Source: Verrucomicrobiota bacterium (GTDB lineage: Bacteria > Verrucomicrobiota > Verrucomicrobiia > Chthoniobacterales > Terrimicrobiaceae). From it: a stretch of DNA of 64,000 nt. The notes beneath the pieces were generated by a model that saw only the letters and a list, made by a program, of their open reading frames with translations, was not told the origin of the DNA and did not search any database. Each line of letters starts with the position of its first letter. The stretch's first letter is position 1. Shown here one piece after another: positions 4,994-9,012 of this stretch. Both the position numbers and the translations under genes were made by a program. The stretch is from positions 1 to 64,000 of the forward strand of contig JAPLTG010000033.1 in NCBI GenBank assembly GCA_026398255.1, read 5' to 3'.

Positions 4994-5509
4994 TTAAATC
5001 CCTTCTCTTCCGCCTGTGCCACGCGGTGGCGGCCGTTGGCTGGGATCGCCTGGGCGGTCTTGTTTTTTCAGCTCCTCAAGTTTCTTCTGCTGCTCTGGCG
5101 TGAGAATCGCCCTCAATCGCACCAGAAGGCCGAAGCGAACGCGCTTCAGCTCGGATTCCACGAGCATCAACTTGTCGAACTGGGCAAGAATTTGTTTTTC
5201 GTCAGGAGCATCGGCGCGAACCAGCGACTCGAGGGTCTCCTCCTCGGCACTCAACTGCCATTGCAACTCGGTGAAGCGCGGCATGGCTTTGCTCATTTCC
5301 TCGCGGATCGTGCTTTGTTGATCGGGCGTGAGGTTGATGGCCTTCTGATTCCGCATGACAAGTTCCGGCGGAAAAAAGGCGCGTCCTATTTTGTCGCCAC
5401 CCGGAGGCCTGGGATCAGGCCCCAGCGACCCGTCGGGTGGAGGCGGGGGTTGCTGCGCGTTTGCGATGCTGATGCAAGCGAGGAAGAGGGAGATGATGGG
5501 GTATTTCAT
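4994..5509 (-). CDS. Spy/CpxP-like periplasmic protein
   Basis: A 171-residue exported protein: signal peptide (residues 1-18, ending ANA-QQ), a Pro- and Gly-rich spacer (about 19-45), then two helical segments each opened by an LTPDQ or LTPEQ word (near residues 60 and 138), which is the signature of Spy/CpxP/CnrX-type proteins. Family members sit in the periplasm as chaperones or as metal/stress sensors for a sigma factor. It is the third gene of the sigma factor-anti-sigma-Spy operon and its ATG overlaps the stop of the anti-sigma gene (ATGA), which points to the sensor role. No His- or Cys-rich metal site is visible, so the signal cannot be named. Confidence 0.75.
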   Translation of the reverse strand: MKYPIISLFLACISIANAQQPPPPPDGSLGPDPRPPGGDKIGRAFFPPELVMRNQKAINLTPDQQSTIREEMSKAMPRFTELQWQLSAEEETLESLVRADAPDEKQILAQFDKLMLVESELKRVRFGLLVRLRAILTPEQQKKLEELKKQDRPGDPSQRPPPRGTGGREGI

Positions 5510-5886
5510 AGGTTTTGATTTTTACTGGGGCCGGAGGAAATCGGTGCGGATTCGAAAAGCAGGTCGCTGGATGTCGAAAGCGGGACGCCGATGCAGGGAG
5601 TATTTTCTGCAAGTATGGCATCCGATGAAGCCGTCCAGTCCGAGATCGCTGCCCACTGCTCGATCTCCGCTGCGGTGTGTATTTCGTTTTTTGGGATGAC
5701 GGAAAAGGCAAGCAGTGCGGCAGCCACAAGAAGGGCGGCTGCGAATGCGAAGGGCTTCCATCCAAATGCGGACGAGGCTTTGGGTGCTGCCGCCTGCTTG
5801 CGGAGCACGCGCTGAAAGCCCGGCGTATTACTCGCATCCTGCCGCCTGGCTTCGTCGAAGAGTTTTTTGAGTGTGTGGTCAGTCAT
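5506..5886 (-). CDS. Probable single-pass anti-sigma factor
   Basis: A 126-residue protein with a basic N-terminal region (residues 1-42), one hydrophobic segment (about 46-65, FAFAAALLVAAALLAF) and a short periplasmic tail of about 60 residues. Its start overlaps the ECF sigma gene by 8 bases and its stop overlaps the Spy-like gene, the usual arrangement for a sigma factor, its membrane anti-sigma factor and a periplasmic sensor. I see no zinc-binding HXXXCXXC motif, so it is not a classic ZAS-type anti-sigma factor. Identification rests on position, size and topology rather than on a recognised domain. Confidence 0.6.
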   Translation of the reverse strand: MTDHTLKKLFDEARRQDASNTPGFQRVLRKQAAAPKASSAFGWKPFAFAAALLVAAALLAFSVIPKNEIHTAAEIEQWAAISDWTASSDAILAENTPCIGVPLSTSSDLLFESAPISSGPSKNQNL

Positions 5887-6436
5887 GGAATTGTCCGGTT
5901 AGTTTGAGAAGTTGGCCGAGCTGCTTCTTGGCGCGGTCATAGTGTGTGCGGGCCGAGCCGAGTGAGACGCCCATTGCCTTGGCTGAGGACTCGACGGTGA
6001 GGTCTTGGTAGAAAACGAGGTGAAGGATTTCCTGCTGGCGGCGCGGAAGTTTGGCGAGCATGGAGCGGAAGAGCTCGATACGTTCCGAATCTTGAAGGGC
6101 CTCGCCATTGTCAGCAGGTTGGCAATCCTTCTCGTGCTCTTTTTGATAGCTGCCCAGCCGGAGAAAGCGAATCCAGTTGCGGCGTCTCTCGCTGGCTGCC
6201 GTGTTACGAATGACCGCAAAAAGCCAGGTCTTGAAGGCCGCACGCCCGTCGTAGCGCGCTCGGCCTTCCAGGATTTTCTGGTAAACAGTCTGTAAGATAT
6301 CCTCCGCATCGGTGTGGTTCGAGGAACAGCAGCTCAAGGCCCAGCCGTAACTCATGGCATGGTGCTGCTCGAGGGCATCGCGCAGCCATGTCTCATCGAC
6401 ATGGGTAGCTTGCATCTCTTGCAGTTCATCGTTCAT
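5879..6436 (-). CDS. ECF-type RNA polymerase sigma factor
   Basis: A 185-residue sigma-70 family factor of the extracytoplasmic-function type. Region 2 covers about residues 25-95, with the DAEDILQTVYQKIL stretch of region 2.2 and FKTWLFAVIRNTAASERRR of regions 2.3-2.4. Region 4 covers about 125-180, with LPRRQQEILHLVFYQDLTVE followed by a helix-turn-helix (AKAMGVSLGSARTHYDRAK). Region 3 is absent, as expected. It heads the operon with the probable anti-sigma factor and the Spy-like protein. The upstream region shared with the divergent peroxidase gene holds two facing copies of one promoter-like word, so it may control itself and the peroxidase. Confidence 0.9.
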   Translation of the reverse strand: MNDELQEMQATHVDETWLRDALEQHHAMSYGWALSCCSSNHTDAEDILQTVYQKILEGRARYDGRAAFKTWLFAVIRNTAASERRRNWIRFLRLGSYQKEHEKDCQPADNGEALQDSERIELFRSMLAKLPRRQQEILHLVFYQDLTVESSAKAMGVSLGSARTHYDRAKKQLGQLLKLTGQFHD

Positions 6437-6603: not shown

Positions 6604-8841
6604 ATGAACAAGACAACTCTTCTTGGCAGCCTCTCTGCCTTCATGCTCGCAGCCGCGCCTTTCGCGCAGCTTGCAGCCCAAACAACAGCCGCCCCACTTC
6701 GGATCGGCGATCGTGTGCAAACGGTGAAGTCCTCACCCGTTTGGAACAATCCCCCTACCGCCGGTGAAGTCGTCGGCAACCAGCCAGCCCAATCTTCGGG
6801 CGCCCTCACGGCAGGTCCCGTGCGCGCCGGAGACTCGTGGTGGTGGCAGGTGAACTTCAACTCCGGCGCGGATGGCTGGATAGCGGAGCGCCAGATTCGG
6901 AATCCGCAAGGGCAGGCCCCCGGTCCCCGCCTGAGTCCGAGCGCTCCAGCGCCAAGGCCCTTGGCAGTGGATGCTGTGGCGGATGTCCAACCGGCAGGCA
7001 ACAGCACGGTGGATACGGCAAGTATCGTCTTGCGTGGAAAAGTGACGCCAGATGTCTACGCCGCCCCTCTGGTTTCCTTTTTGCTCAATGGCAAAAAGGT
7101 CACACTTGATAAAGAAGGCCGCTTCAGTCTGCCAGTGACGCTGGTTCCCGGCGCGAACAAGTTCACTCTTGAAGTGAGCACGCCGAATCCCCGCCAGCAC
7201 GCGAACCAGATTTCCGCCTATCTCGATGGCTCGGTCATCTATGGATCCGATGCCACGCGCGCCGCTGCCCTGCGGACTTTCAGCGGAGGAAAACTGAAGA
7301 CCAGCGAGGGGAACCTCATGCCACTGAACACTACGGGCCTCGCCAATGCCAACGACGCCCATATTTTTCCAGACAACCAGATGTTCCTCAGCGGCGATGT
7401 GCGGGCTAATGAAAATGTCGAGTTGAGCGCCATCCACACGCTCTTCCTCCGTGAGCATAATCAAATCGCGAGCGCCATTGCTGCGGCAAATCCCTCATTC
7501 ACTGATGAGCAGGTCTTTCAAAATGCCCGGCGCATCGTTGTCGGAGAACTGCAAGTCATCACCTACCGCGAATTCCTTCCGGCGCTCCTGGGCCCAAAGG
7601 CCCTTCGTCCGTATGATGGCTACAAACCCGATGTGAATCCCGGCATCGCCACCGAGTTCTCCACGGCGGCCTACCGCATCGGCCACACGCTCATCAATGA
7701 CGATGTGGAGCTCTTGGACAACGATGGCAACGAGATCGATGAGGCCCTTGAGCTGGCGGAGGCGTTCTTCAATCCCTCTGTGCTTCATGCCGTTGGCCCC
7801 GATCCCTTGCTGAAATACCTCGCCACGGACAAAGCCCAGGAAGTCGATACCCAACTCGTAGGTGGGCTACGCAACTTCCTCTTCGGCCCTCCCGGAGCGG
7901 GCGGATTCGACCTCGCCTCGCTGAATATCCAACGCGGCCGCGACCATGGCCTCTCCGACTACAATACCACCCGCGCCGCCTATGGCCTTCCGAAGGTGAA
8001 ATCCTTCGCCGAGATCACCAGCGATACAGCCCTCCAAGCCAAGCTGCTCTCGCTCTACGGAAGCGTGGATAATATAGACCTCTGGGTCGGCGGCCTTGTG
8101 GAGAACCATCTGCCTGGCTCAAGCGTGGGCGCGACATTCCAACGGATTCTGGTCGATCAATTCGAGCGTCTCCGCGATGGTGACCGGTTCTGGTATGCGA
8201 GGGTCTTCTACGGCCCGCAACTTGCCGCCCTCGAAGCCACTCGGCTCTCGGACATCATCCGCCGAAACACATCGATCACCAAAATCCAAGACAATGTGTT
8301 TTTCTTCGACGACACGACGCTCGCCAGCCTTGTTGCCAAAACCGGAACCCTCCCCGCAGCGCTCCTCAAGCCAGCTCCCGCAAAGGACCTCGGGCCCACG
8401 CTCGATGGCAAACTCAACAACCCGGGCCATACGACCTGGGGCGTTGCCGGAGCAGACCTCATGCGCTTCGCACCGGCCGCCTACAGCGATGGACTCTCGA
8501 CTCCTGCTGGATCCTCGCGTCCGAGCGCCCGTCTCATCAGCAACACGCTCTGCGACCTCACCACGACGCTGCCCAACTCCCGCAACCTCTCGGATTGGAT
8601 CTACGGCTGGGGCCAGTTTATCGACCACGATCTCGACCTCACCACCAGCGGCGATGTGGCCTTCGATATCGCAGTCCCGTCCGCCGACCCCTACTTCGAT
8701 CCCAAGGGAACCGGCACAGCCCAAATCTACCTGAACCGCTCGATCTACGACTCAGCGACAGGAACAACAACAGCGAATGTCACGAAGCAAACCTACACGC
8801 TGAACTACAAACCCAAGCCAACTACCCCACCTCGCAGGTAA
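6604..8841 (+). CDS. Chimeric secreted protein: SH3, split Ig-like domain, circularly permuted heme peroxidase
   Basis: Residues 1-25 form a signal peptide, about 33-100 a bacterial SH3 domain (GDRVQTVKSSPVW, WWWQVNF, GWIAERQI) and about 125-193 an Ig-like domain (LVPGANKFTLEV). Its last strand, NVTKQTYTLNYK, appears only at residues 725-736. The 530 residues between are an animal-type (peroxidase-cyclooxygenase) heme peroxidase in permuted order: LDGSVIYGSD near 210, catalytic Arg283 in REHN, proximal His361 in RIGH, LNIQRGRDHG near 440, then a linker and the normally N-terminal part with NNPGHTTWGVAG and distal His675/calcium Asp676 in WGQFIDHD. All key residues are kept, so it may be active. 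CGAAT occurs in the same codon phase at both joints (7184-7188, 8774-8778). Divergent from the ECF operon; a terminator follows. Confidence 0.85.
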   Translation: MNKTTLLGSLSAFMLAAAPFAQLAAQTTAAPLRIGDRVQTVKSSPVWNNPPTAGEVVGNQPAQSSGALTAGPVRAGDSWWWQVNFNSGADGWIAERQIRNPQGQAPGPRLSPSAPAPRPLAVDAVADVQPAGNSTVDTASIVLRGKVTPDVYAAPLVSFLLNGKKVTLDKEGRFSLPVTLVPGANKFTLEVSTPNPRQHANQISAYLDGSVIYGSDATRAAALRTFSGGKLKTSEGNLMPLNTTGLANANDAHIFPDNQMFLSGDVRANENVELSAIHTLFLREHNQIASAIAAANPSFTDEQVFQNARRIVVGELQVITYREFLPALLGPKALRPYDGYKPDVNPGIATEFSTAAYRIGHTLINDDVELLDNDGNEIDEALELAEAFFNPSVLHAVGPDPLLKYLATDKAQEVDTQLVGGLRNFLFGPPGAGGFDLASLNIQRGRDHGLSDYNTTRAAYGLPKVKSFAEITSDTALQAKLLSLYGSVDNIDLWVGGLVENHLPGSSVGATFQRILVDQFERLRDGDRFWYARVFYGPQLAALEATRLSDIIRRNTSITKIQDNVFFFDDTTLASLVAKTGTLPAALLKPAPAKDLGPTLDGKLNNPGHTTWGVAGADLMRFAPAAYSDGLSTPAGSSRPSARLISNTLCDLTTTLPNSRNLSDWIYGWGQFIDHDLDLTTSGDVAFDIAVPSADPYFDPKGTGTAQIYLNRSIYDSATGTTTANVTKQTYTLNYKPKPTTPPRR

Positions 8842-8861: not shown

Positions 8862-8901
8862 AAAAAGCCACCCCGCCGCTCACGGCGGGGTGGCTTTTTT
8901 T
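8862..8901 (+). terminator. Strong intrinsic terminator after peroxidase gene
   Basis: A perfect GC-rich hairpin (gccaccccgccg, loop ctca, cggcggggtggc) is preceded by five A and followed by a run of T. It ends the peroxidase transcript 20 bases after the stop. Because the stem is flanked by A on the left and T on the right it can act in both directions and would also end transcripts from the RluA remnant on the minus strand. Confidence 0.9.
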
Positions 8902-8906
8902 AATCT

Positions 8907-9012
8907 CTAAACCAAGCGCGCGAGTTCCTTGGGCAGCGGACAGGTGAATACCATGCCCTTGCCGCTCACAGGATGTGGAAACCGCAGCGCGCTGGAGTGC
9001 AGGCCACATCCA
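8907..9012 (-). pseudogene. RluA-family pseudouridine synthase, C-terminal remnant
   Basis: The minus strand encodes about 33 residues and a stop: GLHSSALRFPHP, then VSGKGMVFTCPLPKEL and ARLV. This is the conserved tail of RluA/RluD-type 23S rRNA pseudouridine synthases (leucine-His-Ala-leucine, HP, F/W-xAPLP pattern). Directly upstream the frame meets two tandem stops (complement of 9018-9023), and no earlier part of the enzyme, including the catalytic Asp motif, is present between here and 9205. The gene has therefore lost its 5' nine tenths. The breakpoint is next to the rearranged peroxidase gene. Confidence 0.75.

Follow-up and report, generated by a model that had tools for sequence, protein, structure and literature searches.

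A natural circular permutation in a predicted secreted heme peroxidase of Verrucomicrobiota

Results

The two blocks of the peroxidase are present in swapped order

The window analyzed here, a 64,000-nucleotide stretch of a contig from a Verrucomicrobiota bacterium, carries a gene for an animal-type heme peroxidase whose normally N-terminal block follows its normally C-terminal block (Table 1). We think it probable, judging from the sequence comparisons below, that the product is a secreted heme peroxidase of the lactoperoxidase/CyanoPOX kind that arose by one ancient circular permutation, folds in cis and is placed at or within an Ig-like carrier domain. The reading frame opens with ATG and runs through 745 residues with zero internal stops, in agreement with the stop-free frame noted in a first, sequence-only reading of this DNA.

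Pfam identified the animal haem peroxidase family (PF03098) with E = 1.4e-152 and 509 bits versus a cut-off of 25, in two stretches, the larger of which (residues 193–566) covers profile positions 141–530; the family was matched in 12 of 12 homologs as well. The sequence-only reading had placed the usual peroxidase start at the chain end and had proposed a family search with mapping of the block order. The rotation was indeed seen in a phmmer comparison with solved structures, where residues 196–573 align with residues 132–512 of CyanoPOX (PDB 8s6c) and residues 599–724 with residues 5–132, and alignments with MPO and peroxinectin A gave the identical rotation. The two pieces abut at one residue of 8s6c with essentially no loss and no duplication. 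Because they join at a single canonical position, the permutation is complete: each block is present once and entire, with the order swapped, which is the mark of a natural permutant.

Table 1. Features of the peroxidase gene and its divergent neighbors (positions in the window)
Feature	Position	Strand	Residues	Basis
LTXXQ-like periplasmic metal-resistance protein (PF13801)	4994..5509	-		Pfam; conserved
Small protein with one hydrophobic stretch, probable anti-sigma factor	5506..5886	-		inferred from position
Divergent ECF-type sigma factor (Sigma70_r2, r4_2)	5879..6436	-		Pfam
Whole gene, secreted SH3-like / Ig-like / circularly permuted animal-type heme peroxidase	6604..8841	+	745 aa	ORF, Pfam, phmmer, 14 genomes
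Probable signal peptide MNKTTLLGSLSAFMLAAAPFAQLAA	6604..6678	+		read from sequence
SH3-like region	6679..6933	+	26–110	name taken from the sequence-only reading
Ig-like domain, N-terminal part	6970..7182	+	123–193	PF09136 positions 7–67 of 83
Piece B, normally C-terminal peroxidase block	7186..8313	+	195–570	phmmer and homolog alignment
Linker, old C-end to old N-end	8314..8397	+	571–598	homolog alignment
Piece A, normally N-terminal peroxidase block	8398..8775	+	599–724	phmmer and homolog alignment
C-terminal strand NVTKQTYTLNYK, candidate Ig closing strand	8776..8811	+	725–736	AlphaFold strand; weak profile gain
Perfect 17-bp inverted repeat 3' of the stop codon, likely terminator	8862..8899	none		

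Catalytic, heme and calcium ligands are conserved

Piece B holds the Ca2+ loop S204/Y206/D208/S210, the catalytic R267, the heme-ester residue E270, and the proximal H361 with its partner N441; piece A holds the heme-ester residue D674, the distal H675 and the Ca2+ ligand D676. The order had initially been read as Arg283, His361, His675. The order stands, and the arginine is replaced: R267 aligns with MPO R239 and E270 with MPO E242, and R283 aligns with MPO R255, hence it is not the catalytic arginine. All 14 full-length permuted sequences run Arg, proximal His, distal His rather than in the canonical order. The order distal His, Arg, proximal His is typical of the superfamily but does not belong to its published definition as consulted here. 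The signature elements D674-H675, R267-A-N-E270, H361 and N441 align with those of MPO and CyanoPOX and are invariant. By its sequence and ligands, the protein is thus a member of the peroxidase-cyclooxygenase superfamily, in a new arrangement.

In CyanoPOX, the distal H81, R199, D80, E202 and H294 have assigned roles and Ca2+ is bound by D82, T140, W142, D144 and S146 (PMC11776367); each of these ligands has a counterpart in the window protein, with D676, S204, Y206, D208 and S210 forming the equivalent distal Ca2+ site. The heme, distal, proximal and Ca2+ ligands are conserved over 12 sequences with 54–94% identity to the window protein, in agreement with the earlier claim that all ligands survive. 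Among homologs, position 204 is Ser or Thr and position 206 is aromatic; the remaining Ca2+ ligands are invariant. The invariance of the distal His, Arg, proximal His, Asn and both heme-ester acids in the alignment makes it improbable that catalysis has been lost and that the protein serves as a heme-binding or adhesion scaffold like the inactive peroxidase domain of dual oxidases, which lose the proximal His (PMC4420034). Such a scaffold would be in keeping with the SH3-like and Ig-like domains, and the peroxidase activity of this protein is a prediction from its sequence.

The permutation arose once and is maintained

Relatives with the same order, which the sequence-only reading had suggested looking for, were found: the B-before-A arrangement is present in 14 genomes (15 genes) from separate assemblies and sequencing projects. 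The carriers are mostly Verrucomicrobiota, plus one metagenome-assembled genome (MAG) labelled Omnitrophota, with identity down to 54%. The genus group contributes six full-length genes and one split across two contigs; MAGs bearing the names Akkermansiaceae, subdivision 6, Verrucomicrobiaceae, Opitutaceae and an Akkermansia share this order, as does G178, a further member of the class. A single gene in a draft genome of 44 contigs might owe its order to an assembly error or to a recent rearrangement that broke it, but conservation of the order across separate projects, at 54–94% identity and with open frames under purifying selection, refutes an assembly artefact and leaves this explanation with a negligible probability. 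One Verrucomicrobiaceae genome (G683) holds two permuted copies (L065 and L068).

The relatives searched comprised nearby genomes and one genome per species. At the thresholds used, any peroxidase match was obtained in 10 of the 388 genomes sampled from the phylum and in 18 of the 384 sampled from the class, so the distribution of the gene is patchy. Within the phylum Omnitrophota, the permuted gene was found in one of 237 genomes, the MAG holding locus L023, and this isolated occurrence may reflect transfer of the gene or mis-binning of the contig. Viral contigs, searched for more alignment rows, yielded two distant matches only, both in canonical order; 67 plasmid records contained peroxidase matches, none covering over 80% of the query, and phages gave no DNA match.

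We built a tree of 25 sequences (14 permuted and 11 of canonical order) with the blocks restored to canonical order. The 14 permuted rows fall on one side of one branch (support 100/99), and block order maps onto the tree as one change, a value as low as which was reached in 0 of 500 shuffles. Since the permuted rows form one clade, a single permutation event suffices; L023 is its deepest branch. Values of dN/dS in closer pairs were about 0.03–0.07 for block B and 0.04–0.16 for block A, and they reached 0.17–0.22 for the two pieces in the furthest pair compared. The linker gave 0.06–0.14, and the last 23 residues were looser. These values indicate purifying selection on pieces A and B and on the linker. 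The proposal that selection has kept the permuted enzyme, made from the window alone, is strongly supported by the 14 genomes, the single clade, the low dN/dS in both pieces and the conserved ligands.

The nearest sister group in the tree consists of canonical Verrucomicrobiota An_peroxidase proteins (L008, L027–L030, L040–L043), with about 49–55% identity in piece B, in which piece A precedes piece B. In one genome (G330), the canonical peroxidase (L031, L037, L038) is broken by a frame change near its end.

A proposed route from permuted chain to heme pocket

As the best explanation for the piece order, the single-clade origin, the selection and the ligand conservation, we infer that the new ends were created in the loop immediately preceding the distal Ca2+-binding loop, around CyanoPOX residue 132, and that the ~30-residue linker came to connect the former ends. 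Folding in cis to the usual heme pocket would then bring the C-terminal D674/H675/D676 to meet R267/E270, H361/N441 and S204/Y206/D208/S210. The new ends, spatially adjacent, would let the enzyme sit at or within the Ig-like carrier domain, which probably serves cell-surface attachment and which an SH3-like domain would join in some members.

A linker was anticipated at about residues 560–600; it is present, with its position corrected to about 571–598. CyanoPOX is an active haem peroxidase of about 55×50×44 Å that prefers iodide and also uses aromatics (PMC11776367). Among homologs the linker measures 28–40 residues and can therefore span a molecule about 55 Å wide. This length, and the lack of any feature that demands a dimer, make it unlikely that the enzyme is active only as a domain-swapped dimer, with the piece B of each chain completed by its partner's piece A. 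In favor of the dimer, the linker is partly canonical C-tail (the MPO alignment extends to residue 586), leaving perhaps 10 free residues, and the AlphaFold models (mean pLDDT 49 and 46 from alignments of 12 and 15 rows) are too poor to judge whether the pocket closes in cis. Foldseek matches of these low-pLDDT models lean on sequence. MPO functions with blocks A and B as separate chains. Given an MPO pocket built from two chains and a linker of 28–40 residues, a normal H2O2-dependent peroxidase is expected, exported by the signal peptide. On this evidence the protein is most likely a working, secreted peroxidase that reaches its fold in cis via the linker, and outside the cytoplasmic membrane it would catalyze the H2O2-dependent oxidation of iodide, thiocyanate or aromatics.

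Relationship to the Ig-like domain

The sequence-only reading had described the peroxidase as interrupting an Ig-like domain, between FTLEV at residues 185–189 and a closing strand, NVTKQTYTLNYK, at 725–736. The second position is right, and FTLEV lies at 187–191. Upstream of the peroxidase, PF09136 matches with E = 2e-4, below the curated cut-off, over positions 7–67 of 83, and the match ends at the junction; an Ig-like match to this family was found in 9 of 12 homologs. AlphaFold predicts a strand at residues 725–735 whose pLDDT reaches 80 in a model that stays mostly below 50 over the peroxidase, and the Verrucomicrobiota homologs likewise end in a strand-like tail. The cut Ig-like match and the predicted strand agree with an interruption. 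Joining the tail to the Ig-like part raised the profile score in 4 of 4 cases, by only 1–3 bits, and one of nine shuffled tails outscored the real tail. L023 is permuted, yet its Ig domain is whole and it lacks the closing strand, so the rearrangement is separable from the Ig insertion.

The shuffled-tail result and L023 would suit a peroxidase that is permuted yet lies outside any Ig domain, its last strand being an unrelated tail. We regard this as somewhat doubtful, though a possibility to be taken seriously, since it is opposed by the end of the upstream match at the junction, by the predicted strand in an otherwise poor model and by the strand-like tails of the homologs. Insertion of the peroxidase inside the Ig-like domain is likely but unproven, with moderate support. 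An uninterrupted SH3-Ig paralog was found neither in the bacterium's own genome nor in 97 relatives. For the SH3-like region, Pfam gave no SH3 match, and homologs L019, L020 and L026 are without the region. A 5-base match (CGAAT) at both junctions of the window gene was considered as a trace of insertion and rejected, given the great age of the event and the loss of the match in relatives such as L013.

Relation to known heme proteins

CyanoPOX (Cyanobacterium sp. TDX16, PDB 8s6c, PMC11776367) is the closest solved relative, with 56% identity over the best Foldseek stretch and the same distal, proximal, heme-acid and Ca2+ residues as the window protein; it differs in its canonical order, its PEP-CTERM tail and an aligned chain without SH3-like or Ig-like domain. 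Androglobin offers the nearest precedent for the rearrangement: its globin domain (PMC11077535) is likewise a natural circularly permuted heme domain within a multidomain protein, albeit from animals and with the unrelated fold of the globin superfamily. A permuted heme peroxidase of the present superfamily was not found described in the open-licence literature, in line with the earlier statement that no such member was known; neither a review of the superfamily nor a study of its bacterial representatives mentions permutation. Myeloperoxidase and eosinophil peroxidase also form their pocket from two stretches, the light chain providing the distal His and the heavy chain the Arg and proximal His, but there the pieces are separated by proteolysis and unpermuted. 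Their nick sits upstream of the permutation cut. The odds appear evenly balanced for the fullest proposal: a functional enzyme that is the first natural circular permutant among animal-type heme peroxidases, closes its pocket in cis and runs through the hairpin of an Ig-like carrier domain, with the distal and proximal pocket halves synthesized in reverse order.

If our interpretation is correct, the heme pocket, the heme-linking acids and the Ca2+ bridge can assemble from pieces made in opposite order, and the reversed order makes a natural experiment on folding and heme loading. Enzyme engineers would gain a natural split or insertion point beside the Ca2+ loop. Profile annotation labels such proteins plain peroxidases, so the permutation is easily overlooked.

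Genomic neighborhood

The operon at 4994–6436 on the minus strand lies back to back with the peroxidase gene in six genomes of the genus (the window and five others). Its small middle protein gave no Pfam match. The divergent sigma-factor/metal-resistance operon is a weak hint that the enzyme acts under envelope stress; its substrate and physiological role are read here from relatives and neighbors by analogy. Downstream of the peroxidase gene, positions 8908–9005 on the minus strand hold a 98-bp remnant, the end of an RluA-type pseudouridine synthase gene (GLHSSALRFPHPVSGKGMVFTCPLPKELARLV). L013 retains the intact gene at the corresponding location (7475–8362), and the copy in the window genome is therefore truncated.
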